Notes: generated by a model not told the origin, from the letters alone. 64,000 bases of DNA from Verrucomicrobiota bacterium (GCA_030625775.1 DAOUQC010000015.1:1-64000); one strand, 5' to 3'. Numbered from the stretch's first letter, positions 1,106 to 43,113 are shown. A program made the numbers and translations.

Positions 1106-2275
1106 ATGCCCAAACAACGCCATGTGGCCGTCATCGTTGACGCCACCAAACCTTATGACCGTAAGGTTATCTCCGGACTGGCCGAGTATGTGCAACAGGT
1201 GGGCAATTGGAGTTTGTATGTTGAAGAAGAACCGCTCGACAAATTGCCTGACTTCCGCTCCTGGGATGGTGACGGGGTAATCGCCAACTTCGATGACCCT
1301 CGTGTATTTAATGCAGTTAAGAACCTCAACGTCCCCGTAGTTGGCTTGGGCGGCGGTTACGGAAAGTACCACCCCGGCTTGGATATCTCCTACCTGCGTA
1401 CCGATAACAACAAAGTCGCCCAGTTGGGAGCCGCCCTCTTGATTGATCGTGGCTTTCGTCATTTTGCTTATTGTGGCATGCCTAAAACTCCTCTTAATGG
1501 CTGGTCGAAGGAACGCGAACGTTCATTCACCAATCATGTGCTTGCCCGAGGTTTTTCCTGTGAGGTTTATAATGGTCGTTTCACCACCACTCGGCAGTGG
1601 AGAAAACTTCAGGATCACCTTGGCCAATGGTTGAGAAAAATCGAAAAACCAATCGGGATCATGACCTGCAACGACGCACGCGCACGCCATGTGCTCGAAG
1701 CCTGCCGCAAATTTGCCATCCGCGTGCCAGAAGAAATCGCTGTCATCGGAGTCGACAACGACGAGCTGATCTGTGAACTCACTCAACCTCCACTGAGCAG
1801 CGTCGAACAGGGAGCAAAACATCTCGGATACGAAGCCGCCGCTAGTCTCGACAAGCTCATGTCAGGTAAACGTCACAAGTCATTCGAACGCACCATAGAA
1901 CCAGTAGGCATTGTTGAACGCCGCTCTACCGACACCCTGGCCTTTGATGATGAAGCCGTCACCCACGCCCTCCAGATCATTCGTGAACGTGCCTGCGAAC
2001 CGATTCAAGTCAGGGACGTGGTCGATTCTGTCCCGGTATCCAGAACTTCACTGGAAACCCGCTTTCAACAACATACCGGCCACAGTATCCACAGTGAAAT
2101 CAGGCACACTCAACTCTCCCAGGCAAAAAAAATGCTCACTATTGGTAACTTACCGATCAAGAACATTGCTCTTCACTGCGGCTTTCGCACCGTGCAGTAT
2201 TTCACCACTGTTTTTCGTAAAAAATTTGGGGAAACCCCGGCTGTATTTCAAAACAAACACCGCTCACGGGGATGA
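1106..2275 (+). CDS. XylR-type regulator: LacI-like sensor fused to AraC DNA-binding domain
   Basis: This 389-residue transcription regulator has the PVC XylR layout. Residues about 1-270 form a periplasmic-binding-protein-like sugar sensor, seen in HVAVIVDATKPYDRKVISG, the GVIANFDD segment and IAVIGVDNDELICELTQPPLSSV, which is the usual LacI/XylR signature. Residues about 285-385 form two AraC-type helix-turn-helix motifs, the second with IKNIALHCGFRTVQYFTTVFRKKFGETP. I chose ATG 1106 because family proteins start with K-x-x-V-A-V-x-V; an open stretch upstream (from 1073) adds 11 unrelated residues. It is divergent from the FG-GAP remnant and the secreted gene at 119, so it probably senses a sugar and controls those or lost neighbours. 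The ligand cannot be named. Confidence 0.85.
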   Translation: MPKQRHVAVIVDATKPYDRKVISGLAEYVQQVGNWSLYVEEEPLDKLPDFRSWDGDGVIANFDDPRVFNAVKNLNVPVVGLGGGYGKYHPGLDISYLRTDNNKVAQLGAALLIDRGFRHFAYCGMPKTPLNGWSKERERSFTNHVLARGFSCEVYNGRFTTTRQWRKLQDHLGQWLRKIEKPIGIMTCNDARARHVLEACRKFAIRVPEEIAVIGVDNDELICELTQPPLSSVEQGAKHLGYEAAASLDKLMSGKRHKSFERTIEPVGIVERRSTDTLAFDDEAVTHALQIIRERACEPIQVRDVVDSVPVSRTSLETRFQQHTGHSIHSEIRHTQLSQAKKMLTIGNLPIKNIALHCGFRTVQYFTTVFRKKFGETPAVFQNKHRSRG

Positions 2276-2317
2276 AAAAACTACCGGAACGGTTAAAGCC
2301 TTTTTCCTAGGGGGAAG

Positions 2318-3163
2318 TCATTCACCATCCACACAACAGGTAACCACAGGATCTTTTCCACTACATAAAAAATCTTTCAACTCGGGTAGATCGGTGCTCT
2401 CCAAAATAGCAGCCACAGGTCCCGAACAGGCGATGCGACCAATCCCCCCGGATTGATTACTGACAAAAGCCACCTCATCGCAAAGTCGATGCGCCTGGCC
2501 AAGATGATGGGTGACGAGGATAATGGTACGTGTCGTTTTAAGTTGGCCTATCAATTCCTCGATGGCCTGTGTCGACTTGGGATCGAGCGCACTGGTCGGC
2601 TCGTCCATCAGAATGACTTCTGGATTCACCGCAAGGGTTCGAGCAAGGCAAAGTCGCTGCTGCTGACCTAGCGAAAGTTTGCTTGCACAATCCTGCAGAC
2701 GATCCTTCACCTCGTCCCACAGCGTCGCTTCACGCAAAGCTTGCTCGGCTGCGCTTGTCCATTCAGCACGAGGCACGGCTCTATGATGCCTAACACCAAA
2801 AAGCACATTTTTTAAAATACTCACCGGAAAGACCACCGCTTGCTGAAACAACATACCAAGCCGCACCCGCAGATGATCAACGTTCACTTGTGAACTATAT
2901 ATAGATCGGCCATGCAACAAAATTTCACCCTCCACACGAAGCCCGTGATCAAGTTCTATGAGCCGGTTGAGGCAACGCAACAGCGTACTTTTTCCAGCAC
3001 CAGATGGCCCTATGAGGCCGAACACCTGATGCGGAACTATACGGAGATTAACATCCTGAAGCAACTTGCGATTCCCTGCGAATACGCAGAGATCACGCGT
3101 TTCGAGTATATACTGCCCAGCCTTGTCACCGTCGATTTTTTCTACCAATGTTGATTCAATCAT
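2318..3163 (-). CDS. pstB: Phosphate ABC transporter ATP-binding protein PstB
   Basis: This 281-residue cytoplasmic ATPase energises phosphate uptake through PstC-PstA. Walker A is GPSGAGKST (near residue 52), Walker B plus D-loop is VILMDEPTSALDP, and the Q-loop (LGMLFQQAVVFPVSI) and H-loop (LVTHHLGQA) are present. The signature motif reads LSLGQQQR where PstB proteins normally have LSGGQQQR, so one signature glycine is leucine. It is the last gene of pstSCAB and overlaps the end of pstA by 8 bases, indicating translational coupling. The convergent XylR-type gene ends 42 bases away. The family call rests on operon context as well as sequence, since PstB resembles other ABC ATPases. Confidence 0.9.
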   Translation of the reverse strand: MIESTLVEKIDGDKAGQYILETRDLCVFAGNRKLLQDVNLRIVPHQVFGLIGPSGAGKSTLLRCLNRLIELDHGLRVEGEILLHGRSIYSSQVNVDHLRVRLGMLFQQAVVFPVSILKNVLFGVRHHRAVPRAEWTSAAEQALREATLWDEVKDRLQDCASKLSLGQQQRLCLARTLAVNPEVILMDEPTSALDPKSTQAIEELIGQLKTTRTIILVTHHLGQAHRLCDEVAFVSNQSGGIGRIACSGPVAAILESTDLPELKDFLCSGKDPVVTCCVDGE

Positions 3164-4010
3164 TTCCGGATTCCTCGTGAATATGCAATCGTGCGGGCAG
3201 TGCCAACAGGCTCAAGCCTAAAACCAAAACCAGTAGAACCAAAGCGGTTCCCCACAGGTTTGTTCCTGCAGCGGGATCAAAAGAATCCTGAGCGAGAATA
3301 AAAATGTGGTAGGGTAACGACAACACCGGGCTCTCTTTCACACCACTCGGAATGGTCGCCCCGGCAAAAATCGTTGATGTGAACATAATGGGAGCCGTCT
3401 CCCCCGCTGCTCGCGCCAGACCGAGCAAAGAACCTGTCACCAATCCACCGGCACACTGCGGCATCACCACCGACCACACCCTTTGCGAATCACTCAGGCC
3501 TAGCCCCGCCGCCGCTTCAATGTAGTGGCGTGGCAAACTCTTGATCTGCTCGATAAATGCTACCGCTACGGTTGGCAACATCATCAAGCCCAGCAGAACA
3601 CCCCCTGTCATCCATGATTTTCCCCAACCTAAATACTTCACAAAAACGATCAGACCAAACAAGCCGAATAAAATCGAGGGCACCCCGTTCAGCACAGAGA
3701 GCAAAAGCCAGAGACGTTCCTTGGTTCTTTCATTTTTCAAATATACTCCATGCACCAAAGCCAAACCTGTTGCGATCGGAACACTAACGAGAAATGCCGT
3801 CATCAGCAAAATGAGAGTGCCTGCGATATTGTAGAAAATACCGCCATCCGCACCAGCAGACCTGATTTGATCAGTCAGGAACTCCCACGATAACGCCCCT
3901 CCCCCGCGCCATGCGATGACGCCAATGATGAATACGATGATCACCACCGGCAAAGCGGCACACAGGGCAGTGCAAAGAATGAAAAGGCGATCAAGCCAAT
4001 GGCGCATCAC
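3156..4010 (-). CDS. pstA: Phosphate ABC transporter permease PstA
   Basis: This 284-residue inner-membrane protein has about six predicted hydrophobic spans, beginning LFILCTALCAALPVVIIVFI. It carries the binding-protein-dependent permease signature (EAAAGLGLSDSQRVWSVVMPQ, quoted in part, near residue 165) that docks on PstB. The segment AAGETAPIMFTS is characteristic of PstA. It would form the channel with PstC. Its start overlaps the 3' end of pstC by 20 bases and its end overlaps pstB by 8 bases, so the three are one transcription unit. Length is normal for the family. Confidence 0.92.
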   Translation of the reverse strand: MMRHWLDRLFILCTALCAALPVVIIVFIIGVIAWRGGGALSWEFLTDQIRSAGADGGIFYNIAGTLILLMTAFLVSVPIATGLALVHGVYLKNERTKERLWLLLSVLNGVPSILFGLFGLIVFVKYLGWGKSWMTGGVLLGLMMLPTVAVAFIEQIKSLPRHYIEAAAGLGLSDSQRVWSVVMPQCAGGLVTGSLLGLARAAGETAPIMFTSTIFAGATIPSGVKESPVLSLPYHIFILAQDSFDPAAGTNLWGTALVLLVLVLGLSLLALPARLHIHEESGND

Positions 4011-27850: not shown

Positions 27851-29485
27851 TCACTCTTTTTTCTCCACCGCTTCCACCGCTGCGGATAAATTTTTAGCCA
27901 CGCTGAATCCGTAAACCAAGAGCTCATCGCTCACTTCCGTGTATTTGCCCATACGCAGACCGATAAATCGAAACTCCGCAGCTCCCTCATCTCTCACCGG
28001 ACCAATACTACTCGCATCGGGTTCAGGCTCTACATCTCCATCCACTACCGGATTCACCCACAGGGCAATCCTCGCTTTGCTCAACTTTTTGTCCCAGGCA
28101 TAATGCCCAGCCAATACAAACTCCCTACCATCCACAGGACGTTCGCCAATCGCTACATGCTCATGATGCAAGCGTGCAAAATATCGACCTTCTCGAATCC
28201 CGATCGTAGGCACATCCGTATGCGTGGAATCCTCGCGACCGTGCACATCAATCCACAATGCAAAAAAATCCTTATCATCCAAGCCCCGATAACAAGCACG
28301 GATGGCAAAATAATAATCGTCCGGCAGCACCTCCGCTAACTGACGTCGCACTCGATTTGCAACGGAAGGTTCGGCTTTTTCCCTTCCCCTGACCAACAAA
28401 TAACCGCCCGCCTTTACCTTGCCTGAGTGAGAAGCCACCGTTGGAATCAAGCGAGTGAACGCACGGCTCGCCATCCACGGATTCCCCCCAAATCCCATGC
28501 CTCCCCTACTGCCATCCAGAATGCCCTGCCCTTTGGTGAAATCCTGCCCCGCCATTCGCTCGTCCCTATTACCGGGCTTATTAAAATCCAGGCGTGGCAC
28601 ATTTTCCCTGCCGTTATTTCGACCTAAATCATTCGATCCCGCAATCGCAAGCAACTGCTCCAAAGCCGGTGGATCCGCAAACAGCGTCGGATCATTTATT
28701 ATATCGCCCCCTTGTATTCCATTGCTTTCAAAACGTCGTGCCTGCCCCTCGACGATCAATTCATGCACTCCCTCGCCCTTCCCTTTCACCGATATTTCTC
28801 CTTCAAACACATGCACATCCGTGCGCCCATTTTTATCCACGTCCGCCGCAAAATGCGTTCCCAAATCAACAATCTCGACATCCGGCGTCGTCAATTTAAA
28901 CCCAATCGCCTCCTCCGGCGCATAAGCACTCACTCGTCCGTAGAAAACGCGCACCTCTTGGTCAGAAACCACTGCAACTTTCGCCGGACCTTCCAGAGCC
29001 AAGCCAGCATTGCCATTCATCGCCAGACGAGCAATGCCCGATTTGACCCGCAGCGTCGCCCCTTTTTTAAACAGACTACCAAAAGAATACGACAGCTCAT
29101 CATCGGATTCCCAAACACAGTCTTCACTGTCGATCAACACAGCGACGATATTTTTTGGAGCCACTTCTGTTACTCCTCTGTTCAAAAGCACCGAAACCGC
29201 AATCAACAGTGCCACGCAAGCCGCGGCCAAAAGCGCAGCTCCAGTGAACATCGACTGTTCCTTTCCCTTGTCGGGAAATTCAACAACTCTATCATCCTTA
29301 TCCAAGCCCACTCCAAGGAGATTGAGTCGACAACTCAACAGCTCATCCATCTCCATGAGATCCAGATATTTTCTGATCCAATCAAAATCCCCCTTCATCC
29401 CCTCGCCCAAACGCTGCAAAGTTTTCTCGGAGCGCTCCCCGTCCAAAATTTCCCTCAATAGACTGTCGAACTCTTCCTCCTTCAT
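27851..29485 (-). CDS. FecR-type anti-sigma/sensor protein with C-terminal concanavalin-like domain
   Basis: This 544-residue membrane protein has a cytoplasmic N-terminus (MKEEEFDSLLREILDGERS), one transmembrane span near residues 85-110 (AALLAAACVALLIAVSVLL) and a FecR domain near 140-260, with VKSGIARLAMNGNAGLALEG and the VEIVDLGTHFAADVDKNGRT block. The C-terminal 200 residues form a beta-sandwich whose FFALWIDVHGREDSTHTDVP segment resembles the N-terminal domain of the downstream cytochrome-c protein. It probably holds the sigma factor and senses an outside signal. ATG 29485 overlaps the sigma gene stop (ATGA). Confidence 0.82.
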   Translation of the reverse strand: MKEEEFDSLLREILDGERSEKTLQRLGEGMKGDFDWIRKYLDLMEMDELLSCRLNLLGVGLDKDDRVVEFPDKGKEQSMFTGAALLAAACVALLIAVSVLLNRGVTEVAPKNIVAVLIDSEDCVWESDDELSYSFGSLFKKGATLRVKSGIARLAMNGNAGLALEGPAKVAVVSDQEVRVFYGRVSAYAPEEAIGFKLTTPDVEIVDLGTHFAADVDKNGRTDVHVFEGEISVKGKGEGVHELIVEGQARRFESNGIQGGDIINDPTLFADPPALEQLLAIAGSNDLGRNNGRENVPRLDFNKPGNRDERMAGQDFTKGQGILDGSRGGMGFGGNPWMASRAFTRLIPTVASHSGKVKAGGYLLVRGREKAEPSVANRVRRQLAEVLPDDYYFAIRACYRGLDDKDFFALWIDVHGREDSTHTDVPTIGIREGRYFARLHHEHVAIGERPVDGREFVLAGHYAWDKKLSKARIALWVNPVVDGDVEPEPDASSIGPVRDEGAAEFRFIGLRMGKYTEVSDELLVYGFSVAKNLSAAVEAVEKKE

Positions 29486-35941: not shown

Positions 35942-37327
35942 ATGCATGTTCATTTTACAGGCGCTTGCGGGAGGGCGATTGGCTCACTGGCAGCGGAGTT
36001 AAAGCAGAGACCAGGTTGGACAATCTCCGCCAGTGATGCCTGCCAATACTCACCAATGGATCAGATCCTTAAAAAAGCCGGACTCGAAATATCCACGAGC
36101 TACAAGACCTCCCATATCCCAAAAAATGCTGCCGCCGTCGTCATCGGCACTTCAATCGCCGATGACAATATAGAAATAGCTGCCGCCAGGAAAAAAGGCA
36201 TCCCTATTCTCAATATGGCACAATTCCTGAACCAGCATGTGCTGAAAAACGGTAAAAGAATTGTCGTGGCAGGCACCAATGGCAAAACGACCGTAACGAC
36301 TATGCTGGCATGGATTTTCACTCATGCAAAAAAGCAGCCGGATTATTTAATCGGGGGAAACAGCCCGCACTTCCCTTCTTCGGTTCGGTTTCGCAACAGT
36401 CAGTGGACTATATTGGAAGGCGATGAATATATCGCCAGCCAAAATGATCTTCAGCCAAAATTTCTTTATTACAAACCGGACATTGCATTACTGACCAATC
36501 TCAACTACGACCATTCCGAAGTCTTCGAAGATCTGAATTCCATTATTCAACATTTTGAAAATTTCGTCTCCCTGTTACCTGAAAATGGCAACTTAATCAT
36601 CCCCACTGATGATGCCGAGCTCAGAAAAATCGCCAGCAACACCTCTGCCGAAGTGATGACCGTTGGACGGCCTCACCAGTCTGACTACCGGATCACTCGA
36701 TGCCGACCTTCATCACAAGGCATGACTTTTGATCTCAATGGACAAAAAATCTACCTCCCCCTGCCCGGCATGATGAATGTGATGAATGCCGCCATGGCCT
36801 GTGCTGCCGCTGAGAAAGCCGGTATTCCCTTCGAACAATCAGCAGCCGCACTTAACGAGTTCCACAATGCGGCAGGACGACTCGAGATCCTTGAAGACAA
36901 TGTCGCAGGCACATTTATTCTGGATGAAGCCTACCATCCGGCCGCTCTTCGCGAAAACATCGCCGCCCTGCGACTGCGCTTCCCGAATCGCCCTCTCACC
37001 GTTGCACTGTTGCCAAGATTCACCGGCGGCAACAAAGGATTCCAGATGGCTGAACTGCCTGGAGTCCTTGCTGCAGCAGATCGAGTCATCCTCGCCGGAG
37101 TCTTTGACCCAACGGAGTTTCCGAGTGGTCCTTTTTCTAATCGCAAACTGGCGGCTCGGCTCAAACGCAAAAACGTTAAAGCCCATGTCCTCAAAGGCAT
37201 CGCATCTTTGCCACGATTCATGCAAAGAAACTGGACACCCAACGATATTGTCCTCTGCTCACTTCCTCCGGGCCACCGCTTTGTTTATGAACCTCTTATC
37301 AAATGGATGAACCTCCAAACCAATTGA
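35942..37327 (+). CDS. Mur-ligase-like enzyme (Mpl/MurC type)
   Basis: The 461-residue protein starts MHVHFTGACGRAIGSLAAEL with an N-terminal Rossmann domain like MurC/Mpl. The central ATPase domain has VVAGTNGKTTVTTMLAWIF near residue 112 and LTNLNYDHSEVFEDL near 195 in the usual Mur positions. The C-terminal domain shows FHNAAGRLEILEDNVAGTFI then DEAYHPAALRENIAALR, close to the Mpl D-x-A-H-P-P-A signature (Y instead of the first position). Mpl attaches recycled murein tripeptide to UDP-MurNAc; whether this one does so is unproven. ATG 35942 is preferred to TTG 35924. Its TGA overlaps the glycosyltransferase ATG by one base. Confidence 0.8.
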   Translation: MHVHFTGACGRAIGSLAAELKQRPGWTISASDACQYSPMDQILKKAGLEISTSYKTSHIPKNAAAVVIGTSIADDNIEIAAARKKGIPILNMAQFLNQHVLKNGKRIVVAGTNGKTTVTTMLAWIFTHAKKQPDYLIGGNSPHFPSSVRFRNSQWTILEGDEYIASQNDLQPKFLYYKPDIALLTNLNYDHSEVFEDLNSIIQHFENFVSLLPENGNLIIPTDDAELRKIASNTSAEVMTVGRPHQSDYRITRCRPSSQGMTFDLNGQKIYLPLPGMMNVMNAAMACAAAEKAGIPFEQSAAALNEFHNAAGRLEILEDNVAGTFILDEAYHPAALRENIAALRLRFPNRPLTVALLPRFTGGNKGFQMAELPGVLAAADRVILAGVFDPTEFPSGPFSNRKLAARLKRKNVKAHVLKGIASLPRFMQRNWTPNDIVLCSLPPGHRFVYEPLIKWMNLQTN

Positions 37328-38544
37328 TGAAAATACTCATCACCAATCACACTCTCCGACAACGCGGAGGCAGCGAACTATTCACCGCAGAAATCACCTG
37401 TGAGCTATTATCGCGAGGTCATGAGGTTTGTGTTTTCAGTACCGATCCCGGCGAAGTATCGAACGAATTGGAGAAACTGAACATCCCTGTAGTCGACGAT
37501 CCTGGCGACTGCCCTTTTACTCCGGACATTATCCATGGCCAACATCATCTGGAAACGATGACCGCTCTTTGTCTCTGGCCCAACACACCTGCTGTTTACA
37601 TGATTCACGGATCGGTCCCCTGGGAAGAGCAGGCTCCACGCCATCCAAGAATCATGCAATACCTTGCCCCCTCTTCGCATTTCGGCTGGATCATAGAACG
37701 GGATTGTGGAGTCAAAAAAACCTCGCTTGGGATCGTACGGAATTTTTTTGATTCCAAACGATTCACAGCCGTCAAGCCAACTGATCAGAGAACGGGGCGA
37801 GCTTTGGTTTATCACAACACAACACCAGCGAACGGAAAAAACTGGAATACCCTGAAGAACGCATGCAACCAAGCCAATCTCACTTTGGAAGGCATTGGTG
37901 CATCATTTGAAAAAACAACAAAAACTCCGGAAACCGTTCTCCCTGATTACGATGTCGTATTTGCCGCTGGCCGGTCTGCCATCGAAGCCATGGCTTGTGG
38001 CTGCTCCGTGATTTTAATCGGTGCGGAGGCAATGACAGCAAGAGTGAACCCGGACAATTTTGATTCCTTGATGGAATTCAATTTTTGTCCCCATGACCAG
38101 GACAAACCCATAGAAAGCTCCTTCGCTCTTGAACAGCTTGATCTCATCAGACCCGATGAAACAGCTGCGGTTACTACACGTGCCCGAGAGGAATTATCAA
38201 TAGACGCTACGTTGGGGGCACTGGAAAAATTCTATCAAAGCGCCATCGATAATTTTGCATTGGGGTCCTGGAATAAAACAGCCAATGAAAAAAACATCGG
38301 TCGTTATATTCTCTCATTGGCGGCTAAAATAAAAGACACCGATAAAGGTCGAGCCGACTTGGTTGAACAAAAAAACCGTGCTAAGCGACGAGCTGAAAGA
38401 TGGAAACATCGCACCGGGAAACTCAATCGCCGCCTGGAGTGGATCGAGGATCAGATGGAGCACAAAGCCTGGTGGCATGCCCGTTTATGGAGAAAACTAC
38501 GACGAGACTGGGAAGCGCGTGAGAAGGGCACCAACAACGATTGA
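37327..38544 (+). CDS. Glycosyltransferase-like protein with C-terminal basic coiled region
   Basis: The 405-residue protein starts MKILITNHTLRQRGGSELFT, a family-4 glycosyltransferase opening, with MIHGSVPWEEQAPRHP near residue 98 and a shortened donor region AAGRSAIEAMACGCSVILIG near 215, where the E-A-MACG element is recognisable. Residues about 330-400 are basic and helical (RAKRRAERWKHRTGKLNRRL), suggesting membrane-surface or partner contact. It is translationally coupled to the Mur-ligase-like gene (overlap of one base). Its stop abuts the stop of the convergent ATP-grasp ligase with no spacer. Acceptor and donor are not known. Confidence 0.75.
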   Translation: MKILITNHTLRQRGGSELFTAEITCELLSRGHEVCVFSTDPGEVSNELEKLNIPVVDDPGDCPFTPDIIHGQHHLETMTALCLWPNTPAVYMIHGSVPWEEQAPRHPRIMQYLAPSSHFGWIIERDCGVKKTSLGIVRNFFDSKRFTAVKPTDQRTGRALVYHNTTPANGKNWNTLKNACNQANLTLEGIGASFEKTTKTPETVLPDYDVVFAAGRSAIEAMACGCSVILIGAEAMTARVNPDNFDSLMEFNFCPHDQDKPIESSFALEQLDLIRPDETAAVTTRAREELSIDATLGALEKFYQSAIDNFALGSWNKTANEKNIGRYILSLAAKIKDTDKGRADLVEQKNRAKRRAERWKHRTGKLNRRLEWIEDQMEHKAWWHARLWRKLRRDWEAREKGTNND

Positions 38545-39543
38545 TTATGTTTTTCCGCTGAGACACTTGGCCACCTCTTCCGAAATCGGGTAACCCGTCA
38601 ATTCCTCAATCCATAACCACTCCGCATTCGTATTCACCTCAAGAAAATAAGGTTCCCCTGATTCATCCACTGCAAAGTCAAAATATCCAGCCTTCAAATC
38701 GAGAGCTTCTAAATAATCACGCAACAAAGCCTCAAATTCCGAAGATGGATCAAAAAGGCTGTGTTTATACTTCTTATGAGACTTTCTCCAATCAGGCTCG
38801 TCTGTTGACATCCCAGAGGTATCTATTTTACAACAAATGCTCGTGTTAGGAAGAACCGTGATGCGCCAATCCTCCTTTTTCACCACCTGTTGCTGCAGCA
38901 TCAATTGAGCCCGTCGGTCAGGTCGAAGAGATTCGGCAATCTTCTTGGGATCAATTCCCTGGCACCAAAGCGGCTGACTCACTTGCCCCTGTTTTCCTCC
39001 CTCATAGGAAGAATGAACATGTATCGGCTTCACCACCATATATGAATGCCTCCCCAGAAAATCCCTGATAACATGTGGATCATTACCTACCAAAGTATCA
39101 GGCACCTTAAACCCCATCTCTTTTGCCAGGCGCAATTGAAGTAATTTATTAGATGCCCGTTCCATCGACGCGGGATGCCCCAGCGGAAAATAGGAACTCG
39201 GCAACGAGTCCACCGCCAAACGAAAGGCATGATAGGTCTCCGCGAAAGACACCTCCTCGGGTGAAGGCAGCAAGGTTTTAATCCCATCCCACTGGTTTAT
39301 CGGACGCCTCCAATAAATGGTGCTAAAAACGGCTCCCTCCCTCGGCTTTTCATCAAAACCATTACGAAGGCTGGAGAAGACCTCACCTCGAGAAAACGAT
39401 TTTCTCAGGGGTTCAACGGAATATAAAAACTCCGTTGCCAGGCGCGAAGCGTCAATTCTCAAATAATCGCATCCCGATTCATCGAGACGCTGGCAAACAA
39501 GGTCGCCCTGCGCATCACTAGCATGTGAAACAATCAGAATCAT
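38545..39543 (-). CDS. Graspetide-type ATP-grasp peptide macrocyclase (MvdD-like)
   Basis: From ATG 39543 this is 332 residues, the usual length for ATP-grasp ligases that close omega-ester and omega-amide rings in microviridin-type peptides. Diagnostic blocks are WRRP (78-81), SNKLLQLRLAKEMGFKVPDT (131-150), VVKPIHVHSS (170-179), EDWRITVLP (224-232), KIDTSG then DWRK (239-254), and the C-terminal EVNTNAEWLWIEELTGYPIS (302-321), which carries the Mg2+-binding N-x-N-like end of the family. Predicted reaction: ATP-dependent condensation of Asp/Glu side chains with Thr/Ser hydroxyls or Lys amine in the precursor. It follows a precursor gene by 118 bases with a hairpin between. The longer frame to 39681 overlaps the precursor and was rejected. 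Confidence 0.87.
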   Translation of the reverse strand: MILIVSHASDAQGDLVCQRLDESGCDYLRIDASRLATEFLYSVEPLRKSFSRGEVFSSLRNGFDEKPREGAVFSTIYWRRPINQWDGIKTLLPSPEEVSFAETYHAFRLAVDSLPSSYFPLGHPASMERASNKLLQLRLAKEMGFKVPDTLVGNDPHVIRDFLGRHSYMVVKPIHVHSSYEGGKQGQVSQPLWCQGIDPKKIAESLRPDRRAQLMLQQQVVKKEDWRITVLPNTSICCKIDTSGMSTDEPDWRKSHKKYKHSLFDPSSEFEALLRDYLEALDLKAGYFDFAVDESGEPYFLEVNTNAEWLWIEELTGYPISEEVAKCLSGKT

Positions 39544-39570
39544 GAGTAGGTCTTTATTGATCTGCGAACA

Positions 39571-39603
39571 CAAAAAAACAGCCGCCATGTATAACAACGC
39601 CTG
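39571..39603 (-). terminator. Terminator/attenuator between precursor 1 and ATP-grasp ligase
   Basis: On the minus strand CAGGCGTTGT and ATGGCGGCTG pair with one mismatch and some G-T pairs, followed at once by seven Ts. It lies 59 bases after the precursor stop and 28 bases before the ligase start. It would lower transcription into the enzyme relative to the peptide. The pairing is imperfect, so strength is uncertain. Confidence 0.5.
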
Positions 39604-39661
39604 CTTTTGAATGCTCGCTATAATTAAACAGCATTTCGTGCTTCTACACGATAAGATATCC

Positions 39662-39790
39662 CTAAGGCAGAGGCTGAACATCTGTTGTTTTAAAATCAGC
39701 CTGGGGGTCTTTTGTGACCGTTTCCTGTTTGATCAGCAATTCAGGATCGGCACAGATTTCGTGGAGTAGTATGTCTGTATTGTCGTTCAT
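39662..39790 (-). CDS. Graspetide precursor peptide 1 (42 residues)
   Basis: ATG 39790 to TAG 39664 encodes 42 residues. The N-terminal leader (about 1-22) contains NTDILLHEICADPELLIKQ and the likely core is TVTKDPQADFKTTDVQPLP (24-42). The T-K-D-P-x-x-D run resembles the T-x-K-x-P-S-D core of microviridins, and it supplies Thr, Lys and Asp partners for ester and amide rings. It aligns without gaps over residues 1-32 with precursor 2 (41603-41710), with 21 identical positions. It is followed by the ATP-grasp ligase and preceded by a sigma70-type promoter 50 bases upstream. A longer frame starting further upstream (39850) ignores this homology and is not supported. Confidence 0.82.
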   Translation of the reverse strand: MNDNTDILLHEICADPELLIKQETVTKDPQADFKTTDVQPLP

Positions 39791-39840
39791 TTTATGGTGG
39801 ATTAATGTGGAGAAAACCTTGCCCCATGACAAGGATTGAG

Positions 39841-39870
39841 AAAATATCACACTTTCCAGTAATAAGTCAA
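39841..39870 (-). promoter_or_regulatory. Sigma70-type promoter of precursor 1
   Basis: Reading the minus strand, TTGACT (39870-39865), 18 bases, then TATTTT (39846-39841) make a good -35/-10 pair. The same hexamers with 17-base spacing precede precursor 2, and the distance from -10 to ATG is the same (about 50 bases). A conserved leader containing TCCTTGT follows. Confidence 0.75.
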
Positions 39871-39943
39871 TTTATTAGCTTTTCCGATTAAGCCCTCAAT
39901 TGCACTAGCTAACCCTGAAAAATTATCTGCGCAAATGGAGAAT

Positions 39944-41365
39944 TCAGGGAGAAACAAAGGGGCGGAGAATCGAATTTTTCGCAATTTTTTTGGCAATGTC
40001 ACGCAGATCTGAATCAAAGCTTTCAACCTTGGATCCGTTTAATATTTTGGCACAAAGGAACGCGGTTCTATCATGTACAGGCAAGTCGAACGGGGGTTCC
40101 GCTGCCCTCCCGAACATCCGAGTGAAAATCCGGTCCATCACGTTTACCGGAGGTTCGTCAGGCCACTTGTTGCGGATAAACTCCAACAATTGTCCACAAT
40201 CCGGAATATTGAGCAACAGTGCGAGCAAGAACCGCTCCTCCACATCCGAAGTGCTCGCCCGAAACTTTGCAAGTTTTGCCATTCGTTTCTGCTCCTTGAT
40301 CGAGGCGATAACTTCTTTCAGCAAATCCCTGCGTTCGGGAACAATCCGATCAAGTGTGATCGATAGGTGATCGGAATGCCCCAGGTGAAAACGTAGTCCG
40401 ATTAACAGGTGAACGAATTCGTCTGGCGGGCAGGTATTTAGAACCGTTTGTAAGTCATTAATAAAATCCGAGCTCTTAAGCCTTCCCATCATATTCAGAC
40501 TTTGATGCCGACTAATCTCGTCAGGAAATAGATTCGAAGCTAGAGCAATCCTCGGCTTCATGAAATGCCTTTGTGGAAGAGTCCATGCAGCGGCCGTTCG
40601 AATAACTATTGAAACAGAGGGACGCTCAAGATGAAAAAGAGCATGAATCAAACCCTCACCGGCAATGATGGGGCGCACGTCGCCGGTTGTGAGTAATTCA
40701 CAGGATCTCAGTTTAAGGTCCCCGATAGCCAGACGGGAATTAAACCTTTCGGTTTCCTCGAAGTCATAGTGACTATGAATACTGGAGCCATCCAGCACTC
40801 CTAATGCGCCACAAAATCCATGTTCGTGAATACCGGTAGTTCCATCCAACCAATAGTAGATATCAATATCAAAACGGTCACCCCGATATACGGTGACAGG
40901 CGGTTCACCAAACTTCTGTTCGCGATCACGTTGATCCCAGATCGACTGACTGAAAGCTGACCATCGTGCAGGATCCATAGAATCGATTTTCTCGTGAAGC
41001 TCGAAAGCTTTCAGAGCTTCCGTTGCGACCTCATGAAAAACCTTCTCATCATAGCTCAGCTCATTCCATCTGCAGTGAACTTCTTTAGCCAGTTCCTGAA
41101 AAACCCGGGGAACAGCTTCAAAAGATCCGGAAATCGCTGAAGGTGATTCCGATACCGACTCACCAAACGGCTTGAGGCTGACTTCAAAAAGCCACCGTTT
41201 CAGCGATCCGGGAAACTGTTCTTGCTCCGATTCTGAAAGCTCTTCAAAAAGCGTAACGGCCTGCTCCCGTTCTTTTTGAAAGGCCCCTCTTTTCCCAATC
41301 TCCCAATTTTTATAAGCCTTCACTACCCATCGAGTGAGGTCCTTCTCCTTTTGCTTATATGACAT
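39944..41365 (-). CDS. Cupin-centred protein of unknown function in graspetide locus
   Basis: The 473-residue cytoplasmic protein has a helical N-terminal part (1-150), a central cupin-like beta-barrel (about 155-260) and a helical C-terminal part (270-473). The barrel has the metal-type pattern HEHG (His180, His182) in GTTGIHEHGFCGALGVLDG and a later His241 in GEGLIHALFHLERPSVSIVI; a Cys185 lies three residues after His182. This resembles, at motif level, cysteine-dioxygenase-type cupins. It lies between the two precursor genes and downstream of a terminator. A role as oxygenase acting on the peptide, or as a sensor or peptide-binding partner, is possible; none is shown. I do not recognise the full-length family. 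Confidence 0.7.
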   Translation of the reverse strand: MSYKQKEKDLTRWVVKAYKNWEIGKRGAFQKEREQAVTLFEELSESEQEQFPGSLKRWLFEVSLKPFGESVSESPSAISGSFEAVPRVFQELAKEVHCRWNELSYDEKVFHEVATEALKAFELHEKIDSMDPARWSAFSQSIWDQRDREQKFGEPPVTVYRGDRFDIDIYYWLDGTTGIHEHGFCGALGVLDGSSIHSHYDFEETERFNSRLAIGDLKLRSCELLTTGDVRPIIAGEGLIHALFHLERPSVSIVIRTAAAWTLPQRHFMKPRIALASNLFPDEISRHQSLNMMGRLKSSDFINDLQTVLNTCPPDEFVHLLIGLRFHLGHSDHLSITLDRIVPERRDLLKEVIASIKEQKRMAKLAKFRASTSDVEERFLLALLLNIPDCGQLLEFIRNKWPDEPPVNVMDRIFTRMFGRAAEPPFDLPVHDRTAFLCAKILNGSKVESFDSDLRDIAKKIAKNSILRPFVSP

Positions 41366-41519
41366 TAGACAAAATCTCTATTCAAATTCGGAACACATTA
41401 TGCCCCTGCCAATTATGTCAGACGACCATGGAAACCCCGGAAACAAGTGATACCAGAACACTTTTCCACATTAATCAAACCTAATACAAATCGATTTGAT
41501 ACAATCCTTCCATCAAACA

Positions 41520-41555
41520 CAAAAAAGCGGCCCCTGAAAAATCAGGTAACCGCTT
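41520..41555 (-). terminator. Strong intrinsic terminator after precursor 2
   Basis: On the minus strand AAGCGG-N3-CCTGA, a T-rich loop, then TCAGG-GG-CCGCTT forms a two-part stem of 11 base pairs and runs directly into seven Ts. It lies 47 bases after the precursor stop and before the cupin gene, typical of a RiPP precursor whose transcript is mostly stopped before the enzymes. Confidence 0.85.
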
Positions 41556-41602
41556 CTCTTAAATCGAGCTTGGAGAATGAAAACCCTCCACACTTGCAAT
41601 TT

Positions 41603-41710
41603 TTAGTCAGCTCGATCTAGCTGAGGATCCTTGGTCACCGTATCCTGGTCGATTGTCAATTCGGGATCAACACAGAGCCCGTGTAGTAATGTATCGTTTT
41701 CTTCGTTCAT
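41603..41710 (-). CDS. Graspetide precursor peptide 2 (35 residues)
   Basis: ATG 41710 to TAA 41605 encodes 35 residues, too short for ordinary gene finders. Leader: MNEENDTLLHGLCVDPELTI; core: DQDTVTKDPQLDRAD. It shares LLH-x2-C-x-DPEL-x-I-x-Q-x-TVTKDPQ-x-D with precursor 1 at identical positions (21 of 32), which strongly supports both as genes. The core holds Thr24, Thr26, Lys27, Asp28 and Asp32 as possible ring partners. It has its own promoter and leader matching those of precursor 1, and a strong terminator follows. It is presumably modified by the ATP-grasp ligase at 38545. Confidence 0.82.
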   Translation of the reverse strand: MNEENDTLLHGLCVDPELTIDQDTVTKDPQLDRAD

Positions 41711-41760
41711 TTTATTAGATTTTTAGTAGAAAAACCCTGCGCCTTTACAAGGAACTCGGA

Positions 41761-41789: not shown

Positions 41790-41919
41790 CTAAGAAGCAC
41801 TGACCTCGCCTGAATTCTGCTCTAAACCAGCCCGATTGACAAAATGTGCTCAGTCGCTACAGTTTCTTGCAAGCTATCCGGCTTCCCTGCGACTAATTCA
41901 GAGACCTGAATCCACTTTA

Positions 41920-43113
41920 ATGCATTTCGATCGCCATTCTGTCGACAAAGACTTCATTTCGTACGCACCGGGATACTTCTCCGGAACGGACATCAGTCAG
42001 TGGAATGATCACAGCTGGCAACTCAAACACCGAATCACTTCGCTCACCCAGTTGGAAAAACACCTGAATCTCTCCAGCGAGGAACGCAATGGCGTACTGC
42101 TGTCAGGCACCAAACTGGCGATGGCGATCACCCCTCACTTTCTCAACCTCATGGATCGCGATGATCCAGAATGCCCGATCCGGCGCCAGGTCGTTCCCCG
42201 CATCGAAGAAGCTCTGGAAGGTGAAGACGAAATGGCCGATCCCTGTGGCGAAGATGCCCACATGCCGGTGCCGGGGTTGGTGCATCGCTATCCGGACCGG
42301 GTTCTCTTTCTCGTCACTTCCCGTTGCGCTGCTTACTGCCGCTATTGCACCCGCAGCCGGGTGGTCAGTGGTGCCGGACAACAGGAACTCGATACCGATT
42401 TCGAAGCCGCTTATCAATACCTGGAGGAACACACGGAAATCCGGGATGTCCTGCTCTCCGGAGGAGACCCACTGCTGTTCACCGATGACAAACTCGAACG
42501 CATCCTGAAACGCTTGCGATCTATCAAACACATTGAGTTTCTTCGCATCGGATCACGCATTCCGATTTTCCTCCCACAACGCATCACCCCCCGCTTGTGT
42601 GAGATGCTGAAAAAATACCATCCACTCTTTTTGAGCGTGCACGCCAATCATCCGCGCGAACTGACTTTGGAAGTCAAAGAAGCACTCGAACGGCTAGCTG
42701 ATCACGGTGTGCCAATGGGCAACCAGAGTGTTTTATTGCGGGGCGTCAATGACGACGTCGAAACGATGAAAGCCCTGGTTCACAAACTACTCATGTGCCG
42801 GGTGAAACCCTACTACCTTTACCAACTCGATCTCATCCGTGGCTCCCAACATCTACGGGTGCCGGTATCAAAGGGCATCGAAATCATCGAAGGTCTGCGT
42901 GGTCACACCACGGGTTATGGCATCCCGCAATTTGTCATCGATGCTCCCGGCGGCGGCGGCAAAGTGCCGATCAACCCGGAATACGTGCTTCAACACAATG
43001 ACAAACGCGTAGTGATCCGTAACTATGAAGGAGAAGTTTTTGAGTACCCGGAGACCTCTGAGCTGAAAACCACCCCTCTTGAGCCCGCTGCGAAGATCGA
43101 TTGCGATTGTTAA
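41920..43113 (+). CDS. kamA: KamA-family radical SAM aminomutase (lysine 2,3-aminomutase type)
   Basis: The 397-residue enzyme has the radical SAM motif CAAYCRYC (Cys136, Cys140, Cys143), the substrate-contact region PMGNQSVLLRGVNDDV and the PLP-binding FVIDAPGGGGKVPINPEYV block whose lysine holds the cofactor. It would interconvert L-lysine and beta-lysine with a 4Fe-4S cluster, SAM and PLP. ATG 41920 fits the family N-terminus; the open frame from 41836 adds unrelated residues. It is divergent from precursor 2 with a shared gap of 209 bases. No beta-lysine catabolic genes are near, so an osmolyte or translation-factor role cannot be separated from the sequence. The C-terminus ends in IDCDC. 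Confidence 0.85.
   Translation: MHFDRHSVDKDFISYAPGYFSGTDISQWNDHSWQLKHRITSLTQLEKHLNLSSEERNGVLLSGTKLAMAITPHFLNLMDRDDPECPIRRQVVPRIEEALEGEDEMADPCGEDAHMPVPGLVHRYPDRVLFLVTSRCAAYCRYCTRSRVVSGAGQQELDTDFEAAYQYLEEHTEIRDVLLSGGDPLLFTDDKLERILKRLRSIKHIEFLRIGSRIPIFLPQRITPRLCEMLKKYHPLFLSVHANHPRELTLEVKEALERLADHGVPMGNQSVLLRGVNDDVETMKALVHKLLMCRVKPYYLYQLDLIRGSQHLRVPVSKGIEIIEGLRGHTTGYGIPQFVIDAPGGGGKVPINPEYVLQHNDKRVVIRNYEGEVFEYPETSELKTTPLEPAAKIDCDC

Follow-up and report, generated by a model that had tools for sequence, protein, structure and literature searches.

A predicted graspetide-type gene cluster of Verrucomicrobiota with very short precursors, a Mur ligase and a glycosyltransferase

Does an ATP-grasp ligase gene flanked by tiny ORFs in a Verrucomicrobiota genome form a graspetide locus and, if so, of what kind? 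An earlier note on this DNA had proposed such a locus at positions 38545–41710 of the stretch analysed here (64 kb; hereafter the window), with two paralogous precursors, one ligase and a cupin-centred protein. The ligase and both small peptides lie exactly where they had been placed (table 1), and the locus is a genuine peptide-tailoring gene cluster that combines a graspetide-type ligase and tiny peptide genes with a Mur ligase and, mostly, a glycosyltransferase (GT). The borders had been drawn wrongly: they left out conserved genes on the plus strand (35942–38544), and with them the true conserved partners, the Mur ligase and the GT, which had been overlooked. The cluster is present in at least seven genomes, the window genome included, all from one bacterial order; several of the seven are MAGs and one (L076) carries the cluster at a contig end. 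Computational analysis established which genes it contains, their homology and coding nature, the conserved residues and the co-conservation. We consider it probably a graspetide-type RiPP cluster, with short precursors, rings made by the ligase, and tailoring by the Mur ligase and a GT4 enzyme.

Table 1. Features of the window cluster, and predicted precursors in the six related clusters.
Feature	Coordinates	Strand	Details
Mur ligase (P0006), diverged MurC/Mpl type, first gene of a two-gene operon	35942..37327	+	Pfam, NCBIfam, co-conservation
GT4-type glycosyltransferase	37327..38544	+	Pfam Glyco_transf_4 1.8e-8, above cut-off
Predicted graspetide synthetase (ATP-grasp peptide ligase)	38545..39543	-	332 aa; family, structure, tree, residues
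Predicted precursor peptide 1	39662..39790	-	42 aa; paralogy, silent-site bias, profile rank
Protein with cupin-like HxH motif, between the two precursor genes	39944..41365	-	Probably outside the system
Intrinsic terminator directly 3' of precursor 2	41515..41560	-	Fold -22.7 kcal/mol, z -5.7, T run
Predicted precursor peptide 2	41603..41710	-	35 aa; paralogy, silent-site bias, profile rank
L074 predicted precursors	Beside ligase		Three ORFs, 29 aa
L075 predicted precursor	Beside ligase		One ORF, 30 aa
L076 predicted precursor	Beside ligase		One ORF, 26 aa
L160, L161, L162 predicted precursors	Beside ligase		Four, three and four ORFs, respectively, 31 aa

The window ligase matches the NCBIfam models TIGR04187 (1e-51), MvdC (TIGR04185, 1e-32) and MvdD (TIGR04184, 2e-30), in each case with a score below the curated full-length cut-off, and rimK_fam much more weakly (1e-5). 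Its start at 39543 is correct, since the family alignments begin at residue 2. The best solved relatives by sequence in the PDB are CdnC (1e-24) and MdnB (2e-21), with MdnC also among the nearest. When an AlphaFold2 model of the ligase (pLDDT 84, pTM 0.85) was compared with the PDB using Foldseek, ranks 1–32 were all occupied by graspetide ligases (CdnC, MdnC, PruB, AMdnB, MdnB and PsnB), and structures of LysX and RimK followed. These RimK/LysX ligases share the general ATP-grasp fold but are far weaker matches in sequence and lower in structural rank, so the enzyme is not of RimK type. Every residue that is invariant when 20 diverse ligases are aligned is retained, among them K133, K172, R227, D251-x-R253, D289, E302 and N304. 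NCBIfam, the PDB matches, Foldseek and the phylogeny described below agree on a graspetide-type enzyme of the MvdC/MvdD/SAV_5884 family, as originally suggested, and not on one that groups with RimK or D-Ala-D-Ala ligase. From sequence and predicted structure, the ligase can safely be placed among the graspetide synthetases at the family level.

Among the matches listed in a search of 84,980 species genomes, at least three were close relatives: L074 (47% identity), L075 (33%) and L076 (32%), from MAGs labelled Akkermansia and Verrucomicrobiales. The matches listed after these are ordinary graspetide ligases, mostly with approximately 30% identity or less. A search of 386 genomes from the order of L075 added three further relatives, L160, L161 and L162. 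In a tree of 86 ligases, the window enzyme and the six others form one isolated clade (SH-aLRT 100) on a long stem of 1.85 changes per site. The relatives found on plasmids were only ordinary, distant graspetide ligases, and no relatives were found on viral contigs.

The two window peptides share 21 of their first 32 residues without gaps, including the stretch TVTKDPQxD, as had been noticed at the outset. When the whole 4.88 Mb genome was searched with peptide 1, peptide 2 was the only other match (E 2e-9). Their DNA is 73% identical over 95 nt, with 17 of the 29 differences at third codon positions (pS 0.67 versus pN 0.21). A profile built only from the precursors of the other genomes ranked the window peptides first and second among the 1031 ORFs of the window, with weak individual scores (E 0.02–0.03). 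The third-ranked ORF (29155–29247, +) starts with TTG, had no other support and was rejected as a further precursor. We take these coding-sequence comparisons to mean that the two window ORFs are genuine genes, paralogous to each other and subject to purifying selection.

The pattern extends across the clade: beside the ligases of the six other genomes, one to four ORFs of 26–31 residues were found in every case, and precursor homologues thus adjoin the ligase in 7/7 clade genomes, the gene arrangement expected of a graspetide and the outcome anticipated in the earlier note. Overall, precursors have 26–42 residues and occur in one to four copies per cluster. Close precursor orthologues in L160–L162 differ mostly at silent sites, for example with seven synonymous changes to one non-synonymous, or six to one. 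Strong terminators (z -4.2 to -5.9) lie 3' of precursors in the window, L074 (two), L075 and L076; in the last three loci, the terminator sits between precursor and ligase. A terminator in this position is a common route to producing much peptide and little enzyme. Very small size and no known precursor signatures are what spurious ORFs or unrelated coding regions would show; given the silent-site bias, paralogy, cross-genome profile rank, adjacency to the ligase in all seven genomes and dedicated terminators of these ORFs, we find that explanation barely credible. Upstream of both window precursors, the 5' leaders (39785–39840 and 41705–41760, both on the minus strand) carry a TTGACTT element and a small hairpin with a T run. 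This hairpin folds no better than shuffled sequence, so we rejected it as a functional element; the window genome holds no other good copies of it.

Two motifs are common to the precursors: an N-terminal hhxxLC[A/G/S], present in the window peptides as LCV or ICA, and a [ST][VI]x[ST/K] stretch approximately 8–11 residues past the Cys. Acidic residues flank this stretch on both sides in most precursors, and past the Cys each precursor with the LC motif offers one or more acids and a minimum of two donors, as befits an Asp/Glu–Ser/Thr/Lys core. No fixed ring pattern fits them all, however, as the L076 precursor contains E12 as its sole acid beyond the Cys, and one L074 precursor (L074b) only D28. 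In L160–L162, a divergent ORF of 22–25 aa (MSEVRxALCA...) lies directly before the ligase (L160:8513–8590, L161:8982–9050 and L162:9022–9099, all minus strand); it may be another precursor type, or non-coding. The divergent candidate L161e has no acid after its Cys. The likeness of the window core to that of microviridins, to which attention had been drawn, is not homology, since the T-K-D-P run is peculiar to the window genome and missing from the precursors of the other six. Neither the TxKxPSD core nor the PFFARFL leader of microviridins is present, the spacing in TVTKDPQxD being different. Likewise, the conserved hhxxLC stretch has no leading proline and is not a Phhx(1,2)h-type leader, a motif that, by the account in the text of a 2022 survey, occurs in about half of known graspetide precursors and is not a required feature (PMC8939145).

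What else belongs to the cluster? The window Mur ligase has Pfam Mur_ligase N, M and C domains, all above cut-off. Its closest NCBIfam families are murC (1.6e-71, 242 of 335 bits) and mpl (1.2e-64, 219 of 389 bits), and it scores below the equivalog cut-off of both, so that it can be assigned to neither. Besides the cluster gene, the window genome contains the Mur-type genes C144, C6 and C126; in a tree, the cluster Mur falls outside the branch of the genome's Mpl-like gene. The GT gene is translationally coupled to the Mur gene, its ATG start overlapping the Mur stop codon (TGATG), and its stop abuts that of the convergent ligase. Overlapping Mur–GT pairs (ATGA) are also found in L074 and L160–L162, while the GT and ligase ends converge within 0–4 nt in the window and L160–L162, with an overlap of 4 nt in L160–L162. 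A Mur homologue adjoins the ligase in 7/7 genomes, incomplete in L076, where its C-terminus lies at the contig end, and divergent from the precursor in L075. The GT is found in five of seven clusters (the window and four of the six others, which have 45–47% identity to that of the window). In L074 and L160–L162, Mur identity to the window protein is 44–46%; for both Mur and GT, these values are comparable with ligase identity. By contrast with these seven clusters, the available flanks of 79 loci of other graspetide ligases contained neither a Mur nor a GT gene.

The Mur ligase and GT could nonetheless be an independent cell-envelope module that merely adjoins graspetide genes. More distant Mur–GT pairs without a ligase exist in the same order (L171, L172, L174, L175, L178, L180, L219 and L227), so the pair may serve another pathway, and in G960, the genome that contains L075, the GT orthologue (50% identity) is not linked to the cluster. 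In L075 and L076, the Mur gene groups with a subset of these ligase-free pairs and not with the window Mur. On the other hand, Mur adjacency persists in all seven genomes despite ligase identities of 32–47% and differing gene arrangements, and the closest GT orthologues (E < 1e-110) are confined to ligase-bearing genomes (5 of 189 searched). Farther out, nothing specific is common to the clade loci. Of all genes in the 64-kb window, the other loci share only those for Mur, GT, ligase and a generic sulfatase, so the linkage is not background synteny. On balance we regard an independent module as unlikely, and favour a functional association of the Mur ligase and GT with the graspetide genes. 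The ligase-free Mur–GT pair is apparently an undescribed two-gene module in its own right; no convincing LC-motif peptides were found beside such pairs. In L227, a gene between GT and Mur (2114–3397, -) encodes a membrane-protein-like product that, by eye only, has an HTTM/vitamin-K-carboxylase-type look.

The cupin-motif protein had been counted within the locus, but it is not a defining part. It is a fusion of an N-terminal domain of approximately 70 aa, which occurs elsewhere in the order as separate proteins of approximately 100 aa, and a domain of approximately 330 aa that many genomes of the order encode on its own, with no conserved neighbours. Pfam and PDB profile searches with the protein yielded no useful family. 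It is widespread without such clusters and absent from the available sequence around the other six; we therefore rejected it as a member of the system and interpret it as having inserted between two precursor units. Divergent from precursor 2 lies a radical SAM gene (41836–43113, +), identified by eye as KamA-like (lysine 2,3-aminomutase), which is not common to the other clusters. The gene set common to the clade clusters includes no recognisable transporter or protease, and an Rfam scan of the whole window yielded no match.

From this gene set, we infer a pathway with a leader, ring formation, a Mur step and a GT step. The very short precursors would be expressed from their own transcription units; their hhxxLC[A/G/S] stretch (approximately 10 residues) would serve as a minimal leader for docking to the ATP-grasp ligase. 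This enzyme would phosphorylate an Asp or Glu side chain and join it to a Ser or Thr (or Lys) located in the [ST][VI]x[ST/K] stretch, so that one or two lactone or lactam rings result. The dedicated Mpl/MurC-like Mur ligase could then form a further carboxylate–amine amide bond, most likely attaching either the peptide or an amino acid to some partner molecule; a sugar would be added or transferred by the GT4 enzyme. A different chemistry is conceivable, in which the ATP-grasp and Mur enzymes extend a ribosomal peptide with amino acids and no side-chain ring is made. Cyanophycin synthetase, whose fused ATP-grasp and Mur domains act on an Asp chain, offers a precedent for the pairing, P0006 weakly matches the cyanophycin synthetase family (1e-7), and rings are barely possible in the L076 precursor with its single acid after the Cys. 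However, the nearest relatives of the ligase in sequence and structure are macrocyclases, whose residues it keeps, and the match of P0006 to MurC/Mpl is far stronger; extension without a ring is thus very unlikely, and macrocyclization remains our preferred reading.

Mpl accepts peptides as amine substrates, and the likeness of the Mur enzyme to Mpl suggests a peptide–sugar conjugate. That the Mur ligase might join the peptide to a sugar is an attractive idea. In its most specific form, the Mpl-like enzyme would form a bond between an amine of the ring-bearing peptide and the carboxylate of a muramate-like sugar in nucleotide-activated form, with the GT4 enzyme transferring the resulting glycopeptide; this is a long shot, to be held quite tentatively. 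If true, the product would be the ribosomal equivalent of the stem peptide of murein, either part of the envelope or a secreted glycopeptide.

Has such a cluster been described? Neither Verrucomicrobia, Mur ligases nor glycosyltransferases feature in the main text of the 2022 phylogenomic survey of 174 families, and its table of associated families includes neither a Mur ligase nor a glycosyltransferase (PMC8939145). The main text of a 2026 survey of 43 groups and 17,967 BGCs, in which new groups require at least 20 members, likewise names neither enzyme (PMC13097080). A literature search for graspetides together with Mur ligases found no paper combining both among those searched. The initial suspicion of a new group is therefore borne out to the extent that the cluster corresponds to no group that the main texts of the two surveys name (PMC8939145, PMC13097080). 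Our verdict, on genomic evidence, is a putative new graspetide variant characterized by very short precursors, a Mur ligase and a glycosyltransferase. With it, Verrucomicrobiota gain a deep-branching graspetide group, whose precursors, at 26–42 residues, fall near or below the lengths that gene finders search for and are therefore easily missed. The pairing of a macrocyclase with a Mur ligase and a GT is a combination unmentioned in the main texts of both surveys (PMC8939145, PMC13097080). Should the Mur ligase act on the peptide, the tailoring of ribosomal peptides would be tied to cell-wall-type chemistry. With one 332-aa ligase and a 31-aa peptide, the system is small enough for direct testing.

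Compared with known graspetide systems (microviridin MdnB/MdnC, CdnC, PsnB of plesiocin and the SAV_5884/TgmB type), the window cluster has the same ligase fold and core residues, and precursor genes that adjoin the ligase, several per enzyme. It differs in its separate, deep clade, its precursors of just 26–42 aa without the PFFARFL/Phh leader motif or a known core motif, and its Mur ligase and GT partners, with no C39 transporter or methyltransferase seen. MurC and Mpl, which are UDP-MurNAc:amino acid or peptide ligases, are the closest families to the window Mur protein and share its Mur ligase domains and P-loop (GTNGKTT), whereas the window protein scores well under both equivalog cut-offs and is an extra paralogue. 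Cyanophycin synthetase likewise combines an ATP-grasp with a Mur-type ligase on a peptide substrate, but in the window cluster the two are separate genes, the ATP-grasp enzyme is of the graspetide type and the substrate is predicted to be ribosomal.
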